From positions 1 through 21,895 of the IMG/VR virus record IMGVR_UViG_3300034082_001305: a DNA stretch of 21,895 nt, one strand, 5' to 3'. The position numbers were made by a program, and so were the translations under genes. Shown here piece by piece: positions 8,479 through 21,154 of this stretch. The notes beneath the pieces were generated by a model. It was not told the DNA's origin. It made no database searches and worked only from the letters and a program-made list of their open reading frames with translations. Every line of letters begins with the position of its first letter. Position 1 is the stretch's first letter. This stretch comes from a virus.

Positions 8479-9969
8479 ATGAGAACAGTATTAATAGGTT
8501 CGGACTTTATGTACGACAAAGATGGTAATTTAAAACCAATTGAAATCAATACAGCGGTAGGTTGGGATGGCCCTGAAAAAGTAGAAGAAGATATCGATTG
8601 TTTAGATTTAACAGCACTTGACGCGTTTATTAAAGCCAATAATTTTACATCTATTCATTACATCGGACAGTTAGAAAAATTGGATGCAAAACTAAAAACG
8701 TATTGTGATAATAATAGTATAATATACGCATTTCATATAGTTGGTGAATCGGCAATTACTATTCCATATATTGATGATAATGCAGAAACTTTAATTATTA
8801 GAAGTGCATATGATACAACCGCATTAGTAGATGATACATATTGTAGAGATAAAGTGAACTTTATGAATTTAATAAAGGATTCAACCTTTGGTTCACAATT
8901 TGCATATATGAATGAATCAAACACATTAGTTAATAATATTACAAATATTAATGATAATGGAGAGCATCCTAATTTTATTTTAAAAGCTAGATATCCGGGA
9001 TATGATAAAGAACAATATCCTAAATTTTATAAAGTATCAAATCAAACAGAATTAGATGTAGTATTAGAAAACGTAACATCTGATTATTTTTTAATGGAAT
9101 ATCTATATAACCCTACTAAAAAATGGGAGGGACATTCGTTTGTATTAAGAAGTTTAAATATTTTATATCCAGCAACATTAGAGTCAATTCAAATAGGACA
9201 ATATACAAAATTAAATCAAAATATGTTATTAGATAATGTAACATATAATTCAACTACATTTGAAGTAGATACAAACTTTAAATCAAGCTATAACACAGTG
9301 GCAAATACACCATGGTTACCTAAATTAGTAGATACCGATGAAGTTGAACTATCCGATGGTACATTTAAAACCGCATTAGAATTGCAGATTGGTGACGTTA
9401 TTAAAACAATAGAGATACCAAATGAAAATGGACTTAACATTGATAGGTATATAACAAATACATTTGGTTCATTAGACTATAATACATTAGCATCAACCGC
9501 AATTTATTCTAATAATATTGTTACTAATAAACAAAAAGTAAATGTTTTAACTTTTTTAAATACACTAACATTTGAAGATAATAGTACTTGGGAAGATACT
9601 ATGGGTTCAAGATATTTAATAGAAAGAGAAGGTATAGTTGTGTTTCACGCTTTATTTAATTTAATAGCGGGTGATGTGGTATTATTATTAGATACAACTG
9701 ATGGTAATATTTCGTTTGTAAGAAAAACGATAGTATCTAATATACAATCCAAACGAGTATTTTCAGGATGGTTTATTTCGGTTGATAAGGCTATGTTATT
9801 TCTAACAAAAACAACGGGTTCAACCAATAACCAATCATACGTTTCAATAGAACATAATTCAGTATCTTGTCCGGGGGCGGCGTGTAGTTCCTGTTATAGC
9901 GCATGTGAATCGTGTCCTAAAAATGACCCGTATTGTTATTACAGCACGTGTGTTTCATTCACCTGCTAA
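8479..9969 (+). CDS. ATP-grasp-like / Hint multidomain protein, Cys-rich tail
   Basis: This 496-residue protein has three parts. Residues 1-~245 carry ATP-grasp-like motifs in unusual order: DFMYDKDGNLKPIEINTAVG at 9-28 (the E-x-N metal/ATP motif, normally last), then DKVNFMNLI at 124-132, FILKARYPG at 166-174 (Lys169) and YFLMEYL at 203-209. Residues ~280-460 look like a Hint (hedgehog/intein) domain: DTDEVELSDGTFKTALELQI with GD at 285-306, a second AGDVVLL at 397-403, VFSGWFISVDKAMLFL at 427-442, ending HN|S at 459-461 as intein C-termini do. The Cys/Ser expected at intein position 1 and the block-B His (Arg378 here) are missing. Residues 461-496 hold eight Cys (464, 469, 472, 476, 479, 486, 491, 496). 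If C-terminal Asn cleavage occurs, a 36-residue peptide would be freed. It may be a tail/virion protein or a modifying enzyme; the domain calls are by motif only. Confidence 0.6.
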   Translation: MRTVLIGSDFMYDKDGNLKPIEINTAVGWDGPEKVEEDIDCLDLTALDAFIKANNFTSIHYIGQLEKLDAKLKTYCDNNSIIYAFHIVGESAITIPYIDDNAETLIIRSAYDTTALVDDTYCRDKVNFMNLIKDSTFGSQFAYMNESNTLVNNITNINDNGEHPNFILKARYPGYDKEQYPKFYKVSNQTELDVVLENVTSDYFLMEYLYNPTKKWEGHSFVLRSLNILYPATLESIQIGQYTKLNQNMLLDNVTYNSTTFEVDTNFKSSYNTVANTPWLPKLVDTDEVELSDGTFKTALELQIGDVIKTIEIPNENGLNIDRYITNTFGSLDYNTLASTAIYSNNIVTNKQKVNVLTFLNTLTFEDNSTWEDTMGSRYLIEREGIVVFHALFNLIAGDVVLLLDTTDGNISFVRKTIVSNIQSKRVFSGWFISVDKAMLFLTKTTGSTNNQSYVSIEHNSVSCPGAACSSCYSACESCPKNDPYCYYSTCVSFTC

Positions 9970-10020: not shown

Positions 10021-10110
10021 ATGGCAAACATAATATCAAATACAGACATCAATACTTTAAATACCACAATGACAACAATTGGTAATTTAATAGTAATCGC
10101 AAACTCATAG
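10021..10110 (+). CDS. Possible 29-residue peptide gene
   Basis: ATG 10021 to TAG 10108-10110 encodes 29 residues opening MANIISNTDINTLNTTMTTI and ending with a hydrophobic IGNLIVIANS. It is rich in Thr, Asn and Ile and has no charged residue except one Asp. It stands alone in the 170 nt between the Cys-rich multidomain gene and the first 2OG oxygenase, behind an A-rich leader typical of the window. It could be a small substrate or precursor peptide for the downstream enzymes, a small membrane-active peptide, or a non-translated leader. There is no family to compare it with; coding status is uncertain. Confidence 0.4.
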   Translation: MANIISNTDINTLNTTMTTIGNLIVIANS

Positions 10111-10140: not shown

Positions 10141-10671
10141 ATGATACACCTTATAAAAGGTATATTAACAAAAGAAGAATGTATTAATCTTACAAACCAA
10201 TTCGATATTGAAAAAAAGATTAACGCTTCTTTTGATATACCAAAAGATACTGGTTATTCGTATGGATTCGAACCTTCGTACATATTCAACACATATTTGG
10301 ATACGTTAAAATCAAAAATTTTAGAAATTAATTGTAATATAGATGATTTAACAAATGTTAACACATATGTTAGACAATATAAAAATAATTCTTATTTAGA
10401 AAAACACATAGATAGAACGGATATTAGTGTTACAATGTCTATATGTTTAGAATCCACTATTGATAAAGAATGGCCCATTTGTGCGGAAATTAATAACCAA
10501 CCACATTGTTTTAATATAAATGCAGGCGATGGTATCCTATTATTTGATGCGGATAAAACAATACATTGGAGAGACATATTAATTTGTAATGAAAATGAAA
10601 GAGTGTTACAATTTTTTTTACATTGGATGCCGGTTAACTATAACACCAAAAAAACAAAATCATTATTATAA
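10141..10671 (+). CDS. 2OG-Fe(II) oxygenase 1
   Basis: The 176-residue protein begins with the LTKEECINL helix typical of prolyl-4-hydroxylase-like 2-oxoglutarate oxygenases, has the iron-binding H-x-D at His89 and Asp91 (EKHIDRTDI), the distal His142 (IHWRDIL) and Arg154 to hold 2-oxoglutarate (NERVLQFFLHW). The double-stranded beta-helix core spans about 70-163. Such enzymes hydroxylate proteins, peptides or small molecules using O2 and 2OG. It opens the tightly packed cassette 10141-16400, and its C-terminus KKTKSLL is the first copy of the shared K-T/S-x-L tail. An exact TATAAATA at 10672-10679 follows its stop. It has no export signal, so it acts in the cytoplasm. The substrate is unknown; neighbours suggest a peptide, glycan or virion protein. 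Confidence 0.8.
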   Translation: MIHLIKGILTKEECINLTNQFDIEKKINASFDIPKDTGYSYGFEPSYIFNTYLDTLKSKILEINCNIDDLTNVNTYVRQYKNNSYLEKHIDRTDISVTMSICLESTIDKEWPICAEINNQPHCFNINAGDGILLFDADKTIHWRDILICNENERVLQFFLHWMPVNYNTKKTKSLL

Positions 10672-10683
10672 TATAAATAAGTT

Positions 10684-11265
10684 ATGGCATTTACATATAC
10701 AATAGAACCCACCTTCTTAACAAAAGAAGAATGTAATCAGATATTAGATTTTTCATTAAAAGAATTAGAATTAGTCCCATCAAAAATTGTTACCGATTAT
10801 ATGGACGATAATATTAACACAGATGTTAGAAAATCAAATCAAGTATTTTACCCATACTATAAAAAATTTCCATTTTTATTAGAAAAAATGAGTAAATTAT
10901 TAAATAAACATATTTTTGTTAAGGGGTTTGATTTAGATTTTGAAGAAAGTCAATTTCAGTTTACTGAATATCATCCGGGTGGACATTTTAATTGGCACAA
11001 AGATGTGATTGAAGATAAGGTATCAGATTATGATAGATATTGTTCATTAGTAATACAATTAAATGATGATTATAAAGAAGGTGATTTACAAATAAAAGAT
11101 GAAAAAAATGAAATATTAACAATTGAAAAGGGTACGGGTAATTTAATACTATTTTTATCTAATATTGAACATAGGGTACAGATGATAAAAAGTGGCACTC
11201 GTTATACTTTAGTTAATTGGGTAAAATTGATAGAAAAAAAAGATTACAAAAAAACATTATTATAA
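10684..11265 (+). CDS. 2OG-Fe(II) oxygenase 2
   Basis: A 193-residue oxygenase related to PKHD/PiuC-like and P4H-like enzymes: FLTKEECNQIL at the start, YHPGGHFNWHKD containing the H-x-D pair His105 and Asp107, SLVIQLNDDYKEGDLQI, distal His163 (NIEHRVQMI) and 2OG-binding Arg173 (GTRYTLVNWV). The Y-H-P-G-G-H-F-x-W-H-x-D stretch is a very typical family signature, so this is the surest of the three. The gene starts 12 nt after oxygenase 1 and is followed directly by the zinc-ribbon gene (1 nt apart). Its C-terminus is YKKTLL, a full copy of the tail. Probably hydroxylates a protein side chain; target unknown. Confidence 0.87.
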   Translation: MAFTYTIEPTFLTKEECNQILDFSLKELELVPSKIVTDYMDDNINTDVRKSNQVFYPYYKKFPFLLEKMSKLLNKHIFVKGFDLDFEESQFQFTEYHPGGHFNWHKDVIEDKVSDYDRYCSLVIQLNDDYKEGDLQIKDEKNEILTIEKGTGNLILFLSNIEHRVQMIKSGTRYTLVNWVKLIEKKDYKKTLL

Positions 11266-11266
11266 T

Positions 11267-11584
11267 ATGAAATTAGATTTTAAAGAAATTATAGGTGCGT
11301 GGTATAGTAAAATAAATCATACACCAGAACAAAAGGAATTAGCAGATAATAGATTTGCAATATGTATAACGTGTCCACATAAACAGGAAATTTTAAATGG
11401 AAAAGAGTGGTCATTAAAATGTGGTCAATGTGGATGTCCACTATCCGCAAAAGTATATACTAAAAAAACACATTTAGATAAAAAAGGTTCATGTCCATTA
11501 CATAAGTGGAAGGATGTAGAAACAGAACATTTTATTAAATATGGATATATCACTAATTCTAAAAACAATAAAACAATGTTATAA
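11267..11584 (+). CDS. Cys-rich zinc-ribbon-like protein
   Basis: The 105-residue protein contains six Cys arranged as C33-x2-C36, C52-x2-C55-x-C57 and C76 (ICITCPHK; KCGQCGCPLSAKVY; GSCPLHKW), a zinc-ribbon or knuckle-like pattern that I know from small proteins beside oxygenase genes in large phages. The N-terminal 30 residues are a helix (KEIIGAWYSKI), and the C-terminus is a linker carrying the tail NNKTML. It is one base after oxygenase 2 and two bases before the sulfotransferase-like gene. A role as adaptor, metal carrier or partner of an oxygenase is plausible but not shown. Cys count would also permit an Fe-S site, though the spacing favours zinc. Confidence 0.65.
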   Translation: MKLDFKEIIGAWYSKINHTPEQKELADNRFAICITCPHKQEILNGKEWSLKCGQCGCPLSAKVYTKKTHLDKKGSCPLHKWKDVETEHFIKYGYITNSKNNKTML

Positions 11585-11586
11585 TA

Positions 11587-12279
11587 ATGTCTTATTTAAT
11601 AAATGATAATATTATATGGATAATTACACCTAAGTGTGCTAGTGTTTCAATAGAAAACGCAATATTAGATTCTAAAATAAAATCAGAAAAATACCATAGA
11701 GAATCAACACATAATAAACATATTCACGTATCGTTAGATGCATCTTTAAAATATTTTGGAAATAAAGAAAGTGTGTGTATTACTAGAGATTGGTTTGATA
11801 AATGGTTGAGTTCAATAAACCATATTTGGGATATAATTGAATATGAACTTCCATTTGAACCAATATGTAAATGGGAAGATTTAACTAACGAAATTATTTA
11901 TACCATATTTGACAATAATTTTATTAATAATTTACATTTAGCAACAGAAACCGGAACTTTAAAATGTATTAACAATTTTTTAAAACCGGGACAAGAGAAA
12001 TTAGTAGAAATTAACAATATGCCTAACTTATTAATTAGTACCACATTGATTTCTGAACAATATTGGAAAAGTAATAAAAAATGTACATATGAGTTTGATA
12101 TTAAAGACATAGATAAATTTGTAGATTTTATTGAAAATAAATTTGGTGAAAGATTGATATTAGAAAATAAAAACAAATCAACAAAAAGAACAAATAAATT
12201 AATAATAAATGATGAATTAAAATCGTTTGTTTGGGAAAAATTTGAAAAACCATTTGAGAAAAGAAACCAATTAATATAG
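11587..12279 (+). CDS. Sulfotransferase-like protein
   Basis: A 230-residue protein with the two PAPS-binding landmarks of the sulfotransferase superfamily: WIITPKCASVSIENAI at 11-26 (5'-phosphosulfate loop, normally TPKxGSTS/ASTS) and SVCITRDWFDKWLSSINHIW at about 61-80 (3'-phosphate motif, normally RDPxxRxxS). The Ser of the second motif and the Lys of the first are kept. No catalytic His is obvious from position alone. The protein would transfer sulfate from PAPS to a hydroxyl or amine, in keeping with neighbours that create hydroxyls. Its C-terminus, KRNQLI, is the weakest copy of the shared tail (Q in place of T). Related proteins are known in marine phages, with uncertain substrates. 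A 2OG-oxygenase relic follows 3 nt later. Confidence 0.72.
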   Translation: MSYLINDNIIWIITPKCASVSIENAILDSKIKSEKYHRESTHNKHIHVSLDASLKYFGNKESVCITRDWFDKWLSSINHIWDIIEYELPFEPICKWEDLTNEIIYTIFDNNFINNLHLATETGTLKCINNFLKPGQEKLVEINNMPNLLISTTLISEQYWKSNKKCTYEFDIKDIDKFVDFIENKFGERLILENKNKSTKRTNKLIINDELKSFVWEKFEKPFEKRNQLI

Positions 12280-12282
12280 TAT

Positions 12283-12339
12283 ATGACAATATATAAAAAG
12301 ATATTAACAAATGATTTTTGTGATACTATATTATGGTAG
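12283..12339 (+). pseudogene. N-terminal relic of a 2OG oxygenase
   Basis: ATG 12283 to TAG 12337-12339 encodes 18 residues, MTIYKKILTNDFCDTILW, matching the first helix of the 2OG oxygenases in this cassette (compare LIKGILTKEECINLT at 10141 and EPTFLTKEECNQIL at 10684). The rest of the gene is absent: the radical SAM gene starts inside the last codons at ATG 12333 in another frame. This looks like a deletion scar of a lost oxygenase gene whose first codons are still used to bring ribosomes to the next start. Confidence 0.6.
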
Positions 12340-13376
12340 ATTTAAAAAATTATACATGTAACGTACCATTCACCTCATTAGAAATACATAATAATGTTTG
12401 TTTTGTTTGTTGTCCATCTTGGTTATCAAACAAAGTAGAACTTAGTGAAATACCACTAAAAGATGTTTATAATAGTAAACCGGTTGTAGATATTAGAAAT
12501 TCTATTTTAGACGGTTCGTTTAAATATTGTAGTAAAGAGCTTTGTCCTTATTTAAATAAATTAGTAAATTTTGGAGTGACATCAGGCCCAGTTATTTTAA
12601 AATCAAATTCAAACATTAATAGTCCAATTATAAAAAATAATACACCTGAATATTTGGTAATGAATTTCGATAGAACTTGTAATTACAAATGTCCATCATG
12701 TAGAGTTGATTTGATTGTTGAAAATAGTGAAGGTATAAAGCGAGTTGAAAAAACGATTGAAGATATTGATACATATTATTCAAAACACGTGAAAACTTTA
12801 TACATTACAGGTTCAGGAGACCCATTTGTTTCAGTTGGATTTAGAAACTATTTAAGAAATTTTAATCCTAAAAAATATCCTCAATTAGTAAGAATACATT
12901 TACATACAAACGCATCTATGTGGAATAAAGAAATGTGGGATAGTATGCCAAATGTGCACAAATATGTAACAAGTTGTGAAATTAGTATAGATGCTGGGAC
13001 TAAAGACACATATGAAAATAAAACAAGGATAGGTGGTAATTGGGAAAACTTAATGAACAATTTAAAATTCATTAATACCTTACCAAAAATAAGTGTAAAG
13101 ACATCTTTTGTTGTACAAGATAGTAACTATATGGAGATGGAAACATTTTATAATTTAATGTATTCTATTTTTGGTAAAAAAGTAAATGTGTTTTTTGGTA
13201 AGATAACTAATTGGGGAACATTTTCTGAGGGTGAATTCAAATTAAAACAGGTATGGGATACGGAACATCCGGAACATGAATTATTTAAAAAAGAATTTAA
13301 TAAAATATGGAAAAATCAAAATCTATTCCATAATTTATATGAGTTTATTGATACTACAAATAAAACTTTAATATAA
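12333..13376 (+). CDS. Twitch-type radical SAM protein
   Basis: A 347-residue enzyme. The radical SAM motif is C116-x3-C120-x2-C123 (TCNYKCPSC), followed by the S-adenosylmethionine 'GE'-like region ITGSGDPF at about 154-161 and an EISIDAGTKDTYE segment. Before the barrel, at residues 9-71, Cys9, Cys23, Cys26, Cys27, Cys66 and Cys71 form a pattern C-x-x-P-F-x-x-L-x-I...C-x-x-C-C-P-x-W (the first at Cys9) known for N-terminal twitch domains that bind an auxiliary [4Fe-4S] cluster. Radical SAM enzymes of this kind modify peptides, sugars or nucleotides by H-abstraction. The gene overlaps the oxygenase relic, follows the sulfotransferase-like gene, abuts the GT-like gene with zero spacing, and ends TNKTLI (shared tail). 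Cluster supply could come from the IscU and ferredoxin genes near 20744-21895. Confidence 0.8.
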   Translation: MVDLKNYTCNVPFTSLEIHNNVCFVCCPSWLSNKVELSEIPLKDVYNSKPVVDIRNSILDGSFKYCSKELCPYLNKLVNFGVTSGPVILKSNSNINSPIIKNNTPEYLVMNFDRTCNYKCPSCRVDLIVENSEGIKRVEKTIEDIDTYYSKHVKTLYITGSGDPFVSVGFRNYLRNFNPKKYPQLVRIHLHTNASMWNKEMWDSMPNVHKYVTSCEISIDAGTKDTYENKTRIGGNWENLMNNLKFINTLPKISVKTSFVVQDSNYMEMETFYNLMYSIFGKKVNVFFGKITNWGTFSEGEFKLKQVWDTEHPEHELFKKEFNKIWKNQNLFHNLYEFIDTTNKTLI

Positions 13377-14552
13377 ATGAAAATTCAATTTTGGTATAGT
13401 GATATTCTACCAAATACAAACATTAGAAATTCAATTGAAAAAATAGATAATAGTATCTTATTCAATAATATTGATACCAATACCATAGACACTACAAAAT
13501 TAAATTTTTTAGTTTTTTTATTAGAAAACGAATGGACGGTTCCACATAATAAAAACACAGCACATACACATTCTATTGAATTTATAGCATTGTTAACTAA
13601 ATTACAAAGTAAAAATTTTTATTTTATTGCAGATGGAGGCGAGGCCGAGCTTTTTAAAGATGAAGTATTTTCAAAGTTTCTTAATATATTAAACAATAAT
13701 AAATTTGATATTAATAAATTAATTGTTATAAACAATGATTTTTCTAAAGTTGGGTTTCACAAAATAAAATATGATAAATTTGTATTGAATACTTTATTTT
13801 TTCCACATTTTTTCTTAGCAACATATGATAACCTAAACAAATATATTAAAGATATTGTAACCAATAATAAAACAATACCTAATAAAAAATTCTTATGTTT
13901 AAATAGAAGAATGACTGATAAAAAATATAAAATTATTGAAGAATTGTATAATAGGGGATTACTAAATGATACCAGATTTACTTGGATAAAGAATTTCGTA
14001 TCCATCAATAATATAAATAAAGAATTGATATTAGAATACAATATAGACGTAAATGCTTTTAAATCAATTCAATTGGAAGATGATGTATCATACACTACTG
14101 ATGTAATTATGCAGGAAGAGAATTTACATATAATAAATCCAAACTGGTATTATCAAAGTAAAGTTAATATTATAAGTGAAACGATGTTATATGACAATAG
14201 AATTCATATTACGGAAAAAACATGGAAACCAATTTATTTAGGCGTTCCCTTTGTTATATATGCGCCATCAAAACACTATCTTAAAACATTAAGAGATATG
14301 GGATTTAAAACATTTAATTCAGTAATCAACGAGGATTATGATGAAATGAATGGTAAAGATAAAATAAAAAAAATTATAGATAGTGCATTAGAATTATCAA
14401 ATGTTTATAATAGTAAAGAGGTTTTGGATATATGTAAATTTAATCAAAAATTATATTTTGATTTTCAATATAGAAAACAAATATATAAAGAACTTTTTTT
14501 AAATAAAATATGTGATGTTCAAAATTTAACAATTCCTAAAACTTTAATTTAA
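13377..14552 (+). CDS. Glycosyltransferase-like protein, paralog C
   Basis: A 391-residue protein sharing with paralogs A (2985) and B (4232) the C-terminal block: SETMLYDNRIHITEKTWKPI followed by YLGVPFVIYAPSKHYLKTLR and GFKTF. The strongest feature is HITEKTWKPIYLGVPFVIY, which is the typical donor-site stretch of GT10-like and related GT-B enzymes; it also resembles many uncharacterised marine phage and giant-virus proteins. The N-terminal half (LNFLVFLLENEW, SKNFYFIADGGEAELF, KLIVINNDF) has Rossmann-like strands. It starts right after the radical SAM stop (0 nt) and its stop overlaps the next ATG (TAATG). C-terminus IPKTLI is a full copy of the shared tail. Unlike A and B it carries the tail and has a lower GC composition, so it belongs to this cassette. 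Acceptor and donor unknown. Confidence 0.6.
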   Translation: MKIQFWYSDILPNTNIRNSIEKIDNSILFNNIDTNTIDTTKLNFLVFLLENEWTVPHNKNTAHTHSIEFIALLTKLQSKNFYFIADGGEAELFKDEVFSKFLNILNNNKFDINKLIVINNDFSKVGFHKIKYDKFVLNTLFFPHFFLATYDNLNKYIKDIVTNNKTIPNKKFLCLNRRMTDKKYKIIEELYNRGLLNDTRFTWIKNFVSINNINKELILEYNIDVNAFKSIQLEDDVSYTTDVIMQEENLHIINPNWYYQSKVNIISETMLYDNRIHITEKTWKPIYLGVPFVIYAPSKHYLKTLRDMGFKTFNSVINEDYDEMNGKDKIKKIIDSALELSNVYNSKEVLDICKFNQKLYFDFQYRKQIYKELFLNKICDVQNLTIPKTLI

Positions 14553-15073
14553 TGAAAATCGTATTTAGTAAAGAGGAATGTACTTACATAATCAATTTAT
14601 CAAAGGAATTAGAACAATTAGATTCTTTTGGTAAACATGAATATTCCAATAATGATAAAACTTTTAAGGTAAACTATGATGTGTGGTTAATTAATAGAAA
14701 CGAAAAAACTCAATGGGTATTTGATAAAATTCACATGTATTTTACAAATAAAACTAATTTAAAAATAAAAAAAGAATTAGATAAAATATACATACACAAA
14801 TATATTGAAGGCCAACAATTTGAAAAACACACCGACACATATTATAAAACACAAATACACAATGTGGGAGTATGTTTAAACAATGATTATGATGGAGGAG
14901 AATTTGTTTTATATAATCCAAAAGAACAATTACCAAAAGAAACAGGTAACATATATACTTTTCCTAGTCAAAGAATGCATGAAGTAAAAAAAATAATAAA
15001 AGGTGAAAGATGGAGTATAATTGGATTTTTACATATTAATAATTTAGATTTCCCAAAAACGTCACTAATATGA
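14552..15073 (+). CDS. 2OG-Fe(II) oxygenase 3
   Basis: A 173-residue oxygenase: KEECTYIINL at 7-16, IHKYIEGQQFEKHTDTYY with the H-x-D pair His93 and Asp95, GVCLNNDYDGGEFVLY at 106-121 (typical DYxGGEF core), distal His143 (RMHEVKKII) and 2OG-binding Arg153 (GERWSIIGFLH). The DYDGGEF motif places it in the P4Hc/Rps23-like group. It overlaps the preceding gene by one base and the next by four (ATGA), which implies translational coupling. The C-terminus FPKTSLI is a copy of the tail with one inserted Ser. The three oxygenases differ in sequence, so they are probably not recent duplicates but have separate substrates or steps. Confidence 0.83.
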   Translation: MKIVFSKEECTYIINLSKELEQLDSFGKHEYSNNDKTFKVNYDVWLINRNEKTQWVFDKIHMYFTNKTNLKIKKELDKIYIHKYIEGQQFEKHTDTYYKTQIHNVGVCLNNDYDGGEFVLYNPKEQLPKETGNIYTFPSQRMHEVKKIIKGERWSIIGFLHINNLDFPKTSLI

Positions 15074-15627
15074 AAATTGCAATCACAGGCCACTCAGAGG
15101 GAATTGGAAATGATATTTATTTAAATTTAATAAAAGAATACGATGTTATAGGATTTAGTAGAAGTAATGGTTTTAATATAAAAACCCCAAATAAAATTAT
15201 TGAACAATTAGAAAATTGTGATGTTTTTATAAACAACGCATATGAAAAAAATTATCAAACAATATTATTTGAATTAATTTTTGACAAATGGAAATTTTTA
15301 CCAAAAACAATTATTAATATGAATAGTAGTTGTGTTTATCATTCATCCGATTGGTCTCCTGAATATGCAAATAATAAAAAAGAATTAAAAAAAGTATCTT
15401 TAAATACCATTACAAATTATAAAAATAAAAAAGTTAGAGTTATAAATTTATATCCATCTACACTATCAACACATACGGGGTTTGAAAGTTTAAATAAATT
15501 AGATACTGAAAATCTTGCAAAAATGATAAATTGGTTAATAAAACAACCTCAGGAAATTGAAATTAGAGAAATGAGTATATATTGTACAACATTAGAGAAA
15601 GAATTTAAAATAGATAAATTAATATGA
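15070..15627 (+). CDS. SDR-like NAD(P)-dependent oxidoreductase
   Basis: A 185-residue short-chain dehydrogenase-like protein: nucleotide-binding TGHSEGIG at 6-13 (TGxxxGIG), INNAY at 54-58 (NNAG-like), catalytic-type Ser86/Ser87 (NMNSSCVYH) and Y-x3-K at Tyr99 and Lys103 (EYANNKKEL), then VINLYPSTLST at about 124-134 in place of the PG motif. It is shorter than usual SDRs (about 250), lacking much of the substrate-binding C-terminus, so it may be a trimmed enzyme acting on a nucleotide sugar or an oxidised alcohol made by the oxygenases. Start overlaps oxygenase 3 by four bases and its end overlaps the SGNH gene by four. C-terminus KIDKLI is a weaker tail copy (Lys in the Thr position). Confidence 0.75.
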   Translation: MKIAITGHSEGIGNDIYLNLIKEYDVIGFSRSNGFNIKTPNKIIEQLENCDVFINNAYEKNYQTILFELIFDKWKFLPKTIINMNSSCVYHSSDWSPEYANNKKELKKVSLNTITNYKNKKVRVINLYPSTLSTHTGFESLNKLDTENLAKMINWLIKQPQEIEIREMSIYCTTLEKEFKIDKLI

Positions 15628-16400
15628 AACCATTAGAATATTGGAATCCTGAAGGATTTGAAATATCATCGTTTAGAAACAATTTAAGTGAAAGAGTTAA
15701 TCAAACATATAAAGATTCGGGTTCAGATATTACAGGAAATTGCACTTACACTTATAATGAATTGGGGTTTAGAGGAGCTAGTATAAAAAAAGAAGGGTTT
15801 AAGGTAATGTCATTAGGTTGTTCTATTACTGAGGGAGTTGGTGTAAATGATAACGAAACATGGTCACATCAATTGTGTAAATTAATACCAAATGGAGTTG
15901 ATTTAAATTTCGGATGTGGTGGTAGAAGTAATGATTATATCACCCGTTGTTTGATGACATATTACGATTTAGTAAAACCTGATTTAGTTTTAATTATGTA
16001 TACCGAATCACATAGACGAGAATTTTATACCAATGAAGGTGGTATAGAACCATTCCACCATAAAAGTTGGGGGTATTTTAAAGAAACCGAAAATGGTGTA
16101 AATGAACATAATGCACATCTTACTTTATTAAATAAATCAAACAATTTTATCAATTGGTATAAAAACCATCAATTAATAAAATTATTTTTAGAATCAAAAC
16201 AATGTAATTGGGTTTGGAATGGATGGTATGCAACTAATGATTATAATGATAATAATAGATTTGATGGTGAATTTTATCCATTTATAGATTATGGTATTGA
16301 TGGTGCACATCCAGGATACATACATAATAAAGAATATTCAAAAAAATTATATACATATCTTGTTAATAATCAATTAATTACAACAAATATTCTAAAATAA
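15624..16400 (+). CDS. SGNH/GDSL hydrolase-like protein 1
   Basis: A 258-residue protein with the SGNH blocks: LGCSITEG at 64-71 (Ser67 as nucleophile), FGCGGRSND at 96-104 (Gly and Asn of blocks II and III), and DGAHPG at 226-231 (Asp226 and His229 of block V). The block order and spacing fit a cytosolic SGNH esterase or acyl/acetyl-transferase domain, often involved in adding or removing acetyl groups on glycans. The middle contains an aromatic/His-rich stretch (HRREFYTNEGGIEPFHHKSW). It overlaps the SDR gene by four bases and ends the cassette before the lipoprotein promoter. It ends NNQLITTNILK rather than with the shared tail, although an NQLI string precedes the last six residues. Confidence 0.77.
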   Translation: MKPLEYWNPEGFEISSFRNNLSERVNQTYKDSGSDITGNCTYTYNELGFRGASIKKEGFKVMSLGCSITEGVGVNDNETWSHQLCKLIPNGVDLNFGCGGRSNDYITRCLMTYYDLVKPDLVLIMYTESHRREFYTNEGGIEPFHHKSWGYFKETENGVNEHNAHLTLLNKSNNFINWYKNHQLIKLFLESKQCNWVWNGWYATNDYNDNNRFDGEFYPFIDYGIDGAHPGYIHNKEYSKKLYTYLVNNQLITTNILK

Positions 16401-18139: not shown

Positions 18140-18547
18140 ATGATTATTAATGAATTTGACAGATTATTAAACGATTGGTTTGTAGATGATGCATACCAAA
18201 ACTGGACAGCGGCCAGAAAAACAAGAACAGCTACTTCAAATCACAAACAAGTAGTAGTTGATATAAACGAAGATATCTTACGAATTGGATTAGCAGTTCC
18301 TGGCCAAACAAAGGAAACATTAGAAATTACAATTGAGCAAAACTTTATTAAAGTAAAATCAATAGAAAAAGAAACCGATGATAAAATTTGGAATGCAATT
18401 GCACTTCCTGTTGATGAAATGTTAAATATTGGAACTAATTGGGACCTTAGTGCTACATTAGCAACGGTAAAAGATGGTATATTACATATCTCTTTACCTA
18501 AGATAGAAGAAAAGAAGCCAAAAAAAGTATCCATTAAAGTTGGATAA
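18140..18547 (+). CDS. Small heat-shock protein (Hsp20 / alpha-crystallin)
   Basis: A 135-residue Hsp20-family chaperone. Residues about 1-35 are the variable N-terminal arm (FDRLLNDWF), the alpha-crystallin domain spans about 36-125 (VVVDINEDILRIGLAVPGQT; LEITIEQNFIKVKSIE), and DGILHISLPK at about 113-122 is the family's end-of-domain signature. The tail (EKKPKKVSIKVG) contains an I-x-V element (IKV), which in this family docks subunits into oligomers. It would hold unfolding proteins in the cytoplasm without ATP. Phage Hsp20 genes are well known from aquatic T4-like phages. It is separated from the HD gene by 74 nt with a weak promoter, and its 3' end overlaps promoter P6. Confidence 0.85.
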   Translation: MIINEFDRLLNDWFVDDAYQNWTAARKTRTATSNHKQVVVDINEDILRIGLAVPGQTKETLEITIEQNFIKVKSIEKETDDKIWNAIALPVDEMLNIGTNWDLSATLATVKDGILHISLPKIEEKKPKKVSIKVG

Positions 18548-20743: not shown

Positions 20744-21154
20744 ATGGCATATTCAGAAAAGGTAATTGACCATTACCAAAACCCAAAAAACGTAGGAACT
20801 TTAGATAAAAGTAAATCTAACGTGGGTACAGGTCTAGTAGGAGCACCCGAATGTGGTGATGTAATGAGATTACAAATAGAAGTTGAAGATAACAAAATTA
20901 TTGATGCAAAATTTAAAACATTTGGTTGTGGAAGTGCAATAGCAGCATCTTCATTAGCAACGGAGTGGTTAAAAGGTATGACATTGGAAGATGCGGTTAA
21001 ATTAGATAATATGGAATTGGTAGAGGAATTAAACCTACCACCAGTTAAAATACATTGTTCGGTACTAGCTGAAGATGCGATTAAATCTGCAATAAATGAT
21101 TATAGACAAAAGCAAGGATTAGAACAACTAATCTTTGATGAATCACATATATAA
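20744..21154 (+). CDS. iscU: IscU/NifU-like Fe-S cluster scaffold
   Basis: A 136-residue IscU-type scaffold. The three ligand cysteines are Cys37 (PECGD, with Asp39), Cys62 (FGCGSAIA) and Cys105 (IHCSVLAEDAI, with His104), and LPPVKIHC holds the LPPVK peptide by which IscU binds the HscA chaperone. N-terminal MAYSEKVIDHYQNPKNVG is typical. It assembles [2Fe-2S]/[4Fe-4S] clusters from a cysteine desulfurase and passes them to apoproteins. No iscS, hscA or iscA gene is visible here, so it would rely on host partners. Its length and motifs are complete, so it is probably functional. Neighbouring ferredoxin and the radical SAM gene are likely clients. Phage IscU-like genes are known from aquatic myoviruses. 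Confidence 0.9.
   Translation: MAYSEKVIDHYQNPKNVGTLDKSKSNVGTGLVGAPECGDVMRLQIEVEDNKIIDAKFKTFGCGSAIAASSLATEWLKGMTLEDAVKLDNMELVEELNLPPVKIHCSVLAEDAIKSAINDYRQKQGLEQLIFDESHI

Follow-up and report, generated by a model that had tools for sequence, protein, structure and literature searches.

Conotoxin-type precursors combine a conserved carrier with a hypervariable mature peptide containing an even number of Cys residues, and are accompanied by hydroxylating and sulfating enzymes. Among self-cleaving modules, BIL domains, which lack a nucleophile at the +1 position, mostly cleave (PMC7664689), and intein-like self-cleavage between the Asn and the Pro of an NPTH motif has been reported for FlhB, YscU and EscU (PMC3189125). 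Peptidase_S74-type C-terminal chaperones of phage fibres are reported to cleave themselves off (PMC4690869 and related papers). Here, a phage protein was analysed in which one chain unites a ligase fold, a predicted self-cleaving domain and a hypervariable even-Cys payload. It is encoded by an ORF with an ATG start (8479-9969, + strand, 496 aa) in a 21.9-kb viral record, the whole stretch of which (21,895 nucleotides) is called the window, and is referred to as the precursor. Our preferred reading, held with moderate confidence, is that the precursor processes itself, with Asn cyclisation cutting off an even-Cys, probably disulfide-rich peptide, which is probably the substrate of a set of enzymes sharing a C-terminal tag. 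The features of the precursor gene are as follows:

8479-9318, + strand: ATP-grasp domain of glutathione synthetase / glutathionylspermidine synthetase type (residues 1-280; AF2, Foldseek and VIA)
9319-9858, + strand: degenerate Hint (Hedgehog/intein) domain (residues 281-460, starting Pro281-Lys282 and ending I-E-H459-N460)
9856-9861, + strand: predicted cleavage junction Asn460/Ser461 (Asn codon 9856-9858)
9859-9966, + strand: hypervariable tail S461-C496, 36 aa with 8 Cys, the predicted released peptide (ORF translation)

A 95-kb contig (L002/L036) holds sequence nearly identical to the window. Viral contigs, scanned with one common profile, supplied all 145 unique relatives, of which 142 were aligned; searches of GenBank phages and of cellular genomes found none. 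The contigs that carry relatives are up to 335 kb long. Of 15 examined, 6 encode a major capsid protein of T4 type that matches Gp23 strongly, and 3 more gave short partial matches only; the viruses that carry the precursor gene are large and T4-like, with freshwater bacteria as hosts. On one 211-kb contig, two paralogues of the precursor (L188 and L191) have tails that are unrelated to each other. The 496-aa protein had no usable match in Pfam, NCBIfam, PHROGs or PADLOC, and a search of the open-licence full-text literature found nothing on the combination of ATP-grasp, Hint and phage, nor on the combination of enzymes described below. The precursor family is apparently undescribed and the phage gene system apparently widespread.

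Since profile searches against PDB sequences returned nothing for either the ATP-grasp or the Hint domain, the fold assignments rest on structure comparison. A full-length AlphaFold2 (AF2) model built from 26 homologues had a pLDDT of 77, and its residues 278-461 matched inteins, BIL domains and Hedgehog, with 44 PDB matches at E<=0.001 in Foldseek and VIA Z scores of 12.8 to the inteins 7oec and 4o1s, 12.4 to the BIL domain 2lwy and 12.1 to Hedgehog 1at0. As modelled, this region is a member of the HINT superfamily (Hedgehog/intein fold). In the structure alignment, residue 282 pairs with intein residue 1 and residues 459/460 with the intein end. No Pfam Hint profile matched this domain (the first Hint of the family) above cut-off, and PT-HINT gave no match in 26 members at E<=1.

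Intein position 1 is occupied by Lys282 in the window, the block-B His is missing, and no Cys occurs anywhere in residues 281-460. Among the 142 aligned relatives, which span divergent clades, position 1 is H in 73, K in 56, I in 6, S in 5 and D in 2, and never Cys. The terminal Asn is present in 142/142 and the preceding His in 141/142, the exception being relative L370 with Ser-Asn. The +1 residue (Ser461 in the window) is of 13 kinds (S, G, A, Y, P, V, T, L, N, F, I, E and R), mostly not C, S or T. A class 1 intein was rejected on account of position 1 (Lys282; H/K/I/S/D in the family) and the lack of a conserved Cys/Ser/Thr at +1, and classes 2 and 3 were rejected because the +1 nucleophile is not conserved and the Hint has no Cys to provide the block-F Cys of class 3. 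The terminal His-Asn without a conserved +1 nucleophile (HN in 141/142) agrees with BIL / C-cleaving Hint domains, and the Cys found at position 1 of known BIL domains is absent. Asn-only C-terminal cleavage needs no +1 nucleophile, since BIL domains lack it and FlhB/EscU cut between Asn and Pro; the latter case also means that Pro at +1, found in 14 sequences, does not exclude cleavage, and it may slow Asn cyclisation there. Counted against cleavage are the loss of the block-B His from this first Hint and the state of the block-F His, which is Met439 in the window and H in 24 of 36 close relatives, otherwise M, R or K. Because pLDDT is below 50 at residues 456-484, the active-site geometry is not given by the model.

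The sequence-only reading of this DNA had described a Hint-like region at about residues 280-460, ending in EHN/S, lacking the N-terminal nucleophile and the block-B His and followed by a 36-residue tail with eight Cys. All of these observations were borne out, with the domain at 281-460, Lys282 at position 1, the tail at 9859-9966 and, in the predicted structure, a Hint fold (Z 12.8 over 278-461); that reading had missed the ATP-grasp domain at the N-terminus and the tags in which the cassette enzymes end. It had further taken Asn-Ser as the junction and held that homologues keeping the tail without Asn-Ser would speak against it; such homologues exist as far as the Ser is concerned, and the Asn never changes.

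Residues 1-280, modelled separately by AF2 (pLDDT 87, pTM 0.83), matched eukaryotic glutathione synthetases (GSS) in Foldseek (E 1.7e-5 and 2.8e-5) and yeast and human GSS and E. coli YjfC in VIA (Z 9.3). This predicted fold, which extends across the entire domain, places it with ATP-grasp proteins of the glutathione synthetase type. The precursor also shares with the GSS / glutathionylspermidine synthetase family an S-D-[FY]-M ... E-I-N-T motif, seen near its N-terminus as SDFMYDKDG..IEINT and presumably present in human GSS. It differs from that family in having no Pfam or NCBIfam match above cut-off, in a structural identity of 10-15%, and in showing no evidence of a glutathione-like substrate. 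Seven residues, D9, E22, N24, R108, D112, K169 and R224, are invariant in 142/142 aligned relatives, which suggests that the domain is active; by analogy, they are candidate ATP/metal-binding positions.

Among 36 close relatives, median identity is 28% for the tail, 48% for the Hint and 56% for the N-terminal part, as was foreseen when a search for homologues with a varying tail behind a conserved Hint was proposed. The tail consists of about 19% Cys, is rich in Gly, Ser, Pro and Tyr with scarce charges, and gave no confident AF2 model. Its Cys number is even (4, 6, 8 or 10) in 128 of 129 short tails, the odd one being L273 with 9 Cys, and even in all 49 tail clusters (<50% identity); in the remainder of the protein both parities occur. 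The chance of 49 even clusters would be near 2^-49 if the draws were independent, a weight that is lowered by shared descent. Gain and loss of Cys in pairs is what disulfide pairing predicts, and the tail is probably a disulfide-rich peptide with paired Cys; unless the peptide is exported or the cell lyses, disulfides are unlikely to form, given the cytoplasmic setting. It is rather improbable that these Cys instead bind Zn or Fe-S, with the precursor serving the cassette as a cofactor or amino-group-carrier-like scaffold comparable to LysX/LysW. LysX and ArgX (of LysW complexes) are indeed among the weaker Foldseek matches of the ATP-grasp domain, CxxC spacings occur in tails, a zinc-ribbon-like protein adjoins the precursor and an IscU-like gene lies in the window, but the Cys number rises pairwise (4/6/8/10/12) with no conserved spacing, and six or ten Cys misfit single 4-Cys sites.

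In some relatives the chain continues beyond the Cys peptide:

L235:1488-3362, L238:2076-3998, L241:7451-9367, L246:6343-8286 and L362: relatives with a second Hint domain
L252:3908-5815, L364, L365, L366, L367 and L368: relatives with a Peptidase_S74-like module after the Cys segment

The second Hint is canonical in all five relatives, with Cys1, the block-B His and a terminal HN followed by a short tail, and exactly 6 Cys lie between the HN of the first Hint and Cys1 of the second (5/5). In the four of these five clade D relatives that were scanned with Pfam, it matched PT-HINT (3.8e-14) and Intein_splicing (about 1e-10 to 1e-12) above cut-off. With no nucleophile at its own +1 position, this second Hint is expected to cleave and not to splice. 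The junctions of the two Hint domains that flank the peptide are complementary. In the six S74-like forms, a Cys-rich segment of 67-108 aa with 6, 8 or 10 Cys stands before the module, which was recognised by motif in 6/142 relatives and scored 20.1 against a 22-bit cut-off in the one member scanned with Pfam; the window protein has no C-terminal Peptidase_S74. The order of a Hint that could cut only at its C-terminus, a payload and, where needed, a module able to cut at its own N-terminus makes the strongest case that the peptide is set free, a case drawn from comparative anatomy, not chemistry. GenBank phage matches of the two-Hint form align to the second Hint only and include RHS/pretoxin-like proteins as well as genes with helicase or terminase annotations, the latter probably being inteins. 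The genome that carries relative L080 also contains a 1598-aa fibre-like ORF (L094:4111-8907, - strand) ending in a canonical Hint (CLAKGTKI ... VHN/VLGPGGKITP).

These arrangements also bear on two other roles for the tail. It could remain attached as a diversifying virion or surface tip decorated by the cassette, with the Hint acting as a dead adaptor: the tail diversifies like receptor-binding tips, Hint and S74 modules are also C-terminal in phage fibres (as in the 1598-aa ORF), the +1 residue is unconstrained, and the block-B His and some block-F His are lost. Such uncleaved display is unlikely in our judgement, since HN is kept in 141-142/142 relatives against a background of drift at the remaining catalytic positions of the Hint, which is unexpected for a dead adaptor, two unrelated kinds of second cutter are placed precisely at the distal end of the peptide, and no virion gene evidence was found. 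Alternatively, the Hint-released peptide could act on competing or host bacteria in the manner of polymorphic toxins with pretoxin Hint domains. The closeness of the second Hint of five relatives to PT-HINT, the RHS/pretoxin-like GenBank matches and the variable C-terminus behind a conserved carrier would fit such an effector, to which we nevertheless give little credence, as no secretion apparatus, immunity gene or toxin domain was found, PADLOC was negative, and the modifying-enzyme cassette is unlike known toxin loci.

The cassette downstream of the precursor gene in the window comprises:

10141-10671, + strand: F8, 2OG-Fe(II)-oxygenase-like (HxD...H read from sequence), tag KSLL at 10657-10668
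10684-11265, + strand: F0, 2OG-Fe(II) oxygenase (Pfam 2OG-FeII_Oxy_3, E 2.2e-14), tag KTLL at 11251-11262
11267-11584, + strand: F3, 105-aa six-Cys zinc-ribbon-like partner (motif reading), tag KTML at 11570-11581
11587-12279, + strand: F4, sulfotransferase-like (PKCASxS and RDW motifs in alignment), ending NQLI at 12265-12276
12333-13376, + strand: F6, radical SAM enzyme (Pfam Radical_SAM, E 6.5e-8), tag KTLI at 13362-13373
13377-14552, + strand: F7, probable glycosyltransferase-like (cassette position and tag; no Pfam match), tag KTLI at 14538-14549
14552-15073, + strand: F0 paralogue, 2OG-Fe(II) oxygenase (Pfam 2OG-FeII_Oxy_3, E 4.6e-11), tag TSLI at 15059-15070
15070-15627, + strand: F41, short-chain-dehydrogenase-like (Pfam adh_short, E 2.1e-5, score slightly under the curated cut-off), ending DKLI at 15613-15624
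15624-16400, + strand: F2, weakly GDSL/SGNH-like (Pfam Lipase_GDSL_2, E 0.0063, under cut-off), untagged here and tagged in other phages

The link between the precursor and the downstream oxygenases and radical SAM enzyme, formerly drawn from position, recurs: the same cassette families surround the precursor in many independent contigs and in differing genomic contexts. F3, with the motif CxxCP..CxxCGC..CPxxKW and no confident family, lies beside a homologue of the precursor in almost every locus found with F3 as query, the exceptions being L234, L275 and L277. F8 matches PHROG 2954/3531, families labelled 'ferrochelatase'. F4 and F5 are putative sulfotransferases by their motifs, and Pfam gave no support for this in F4. 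Further cassette genes in other contigs encode, according to Pfam, an Asp/Asn beta-hydroxylase (3.6e-12), APS kinase (3.6e-17), carbamoyltransferase and DUF2061, additions that fit sulfation. Genes of the following types often lie directly upstream of the precursor, which suggests a supply of PAPS for sulfation:

L041:8438-8872, L051:8769-9152, L079:9758-9973 and L079:7115-8782: APS kinase, nucleotidyltransferase-like, DUF2061 and carbamoyltransferase genes

In the window, a 29-codon ORF (10021-10110; MANIISNTDINTLNTTMTTIGNLIVIANS) follows the precursor gene and precedes that of the first oxygenase. An HSP20 chaperone gene (18140-18547; Pfam E 4.6e-11) and, by sequence reading, an IscU/NifU-like Fe-S scaffold gene (20744-21154) lie near the cassette.

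The cassette enzymes, which are of unrelated folds, end in a shared tag, K-[T/S]-L-[I/L], found in about 15 enzyme families and dozens of phages; in the window, eight consecutive unrelated genes end in KSLL, KTLL, KTML, NQLI, KTLI, KTLI, TSLI and DKLI. The pattern K-[T/S/N/K]-[L/I]-[I/L] occurs in 176 of 250 distinct cassette C-termini (13 of 14 tagged for F8), compared with 28 of 379 C-termini outside these families, several of the 28 belonging to additional cassette members, and with none of 37 precursors. On a 335-kb contig, the loose pattern was found in 19 of 405 ORFs, 7 of which cluster just downstream of the precursor. The tag was absent from four cyanophage 2OG oxygenases examined, three of them F0 matches. 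A ribosome-binding or codon artefact was rejected: within the tag, Leu, Thr and Ser are spelled by many synonymous codons (Ser by TCN and AGT alike), and the next gene may overlap or lie more than 50 bases away, so it is the peptide that is under selection. The simplest reading is that the tag is a docking signal, and a possible receptor is the precursor, the one constant component, which carries no tag. That the tag is a ligation site rather than a docking motif, with the ATP-grasp domain ligating the freed Cys peptide, which would have a new N-terminus, to the tag carboxylates of the cassette in the way of tubulin-tyrosine-ligase or Pup, is very improbable.

In the self-processing mechanism that we prefer, the chain begins with a domain of ATP-grasp ligase fold, joined to a Hint that has lost N-terminal junction chemistry and retains the C-terminal His-Asn. 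Asn460 would cyclise and cut the chain after itself, which would free the hypervariable even-Cys peptide; where the chain extends past the peptide, its other end would be cut by the Cys1 Hint or Peptidase_S74. The tagged 2OG oxygenases, Asp/Asn-hydroxylase, radical SAM and sulfotransferase-like enzymes would probably dock via K-[T/S]-L-[I/L] and probably modify the peptide while it is attached to the precursor, and the product may finally be displayed or released at the cell or virion surface. The sequence-only reading had proposed Asn460 cyclisation yielding a self-maturing effector, a virion adhesion tip or a substrate of the downstream enzymes, an interpretation that on the whole is supported in part. 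If the mechanism is correct, it would represent a new route to self-released modified mini-proteins and a new use of Hint domains, placed naturally at both ends of a peptide, and K-[T/S]-L-[I/L] would be a new C-terminal assembly signal.

The precursor and its tagged enzymes have the look of a viral factory whose products would be modified mini-proteins that release themselves, a system whose component parts belong to known folds. Like BIL / C-cleaving Hint domains, the precursor has a Hint fold with terminal His-Asn, no conserved +1 nucleophile and expected cleavage (PMC7664689), but its position 1 is never Cys (K/H/I/S/D), the block-B His is lost, and the Hint is fused to an ATP-grasp domain and an even-Cys peptide. 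Engineered cyclic-peptide inteins likewise have a Hint at both ends of a peptide, an arrangement that is natural in five relatives. PT-HINT pretoxins likewise carry a variable payload C-terminal to a conserved Hint, whereas the payload here is a Cys peptide of 23-62 aa rather than an enzyme toxin, the carrier is ATP-grasp, and neither an immunity gene nor a secretion system accompanies it. Borosins (OphMA-type RiPP precursors) also link a modifying enzyme, in one chain, to a variable core peptide at the C-terminus (PMC7878506); the precursor differs in having ATP-grasp instead of a methyltransferase, a built-in Hint for predicted self-cleavage and an even-Cys core, in its separate and tagged modifying enzymes, and in being phage-borne. 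Judged by its architecture, the precursor is compatible with the RiPP precursor class. By analogy only, it is like conotoxin-type precursors in its carrier, its even-Cys peptide and its enzymes, from which it differs in being non-homologous, of phage origin and equipped with a putatively self-cleaving Hint.
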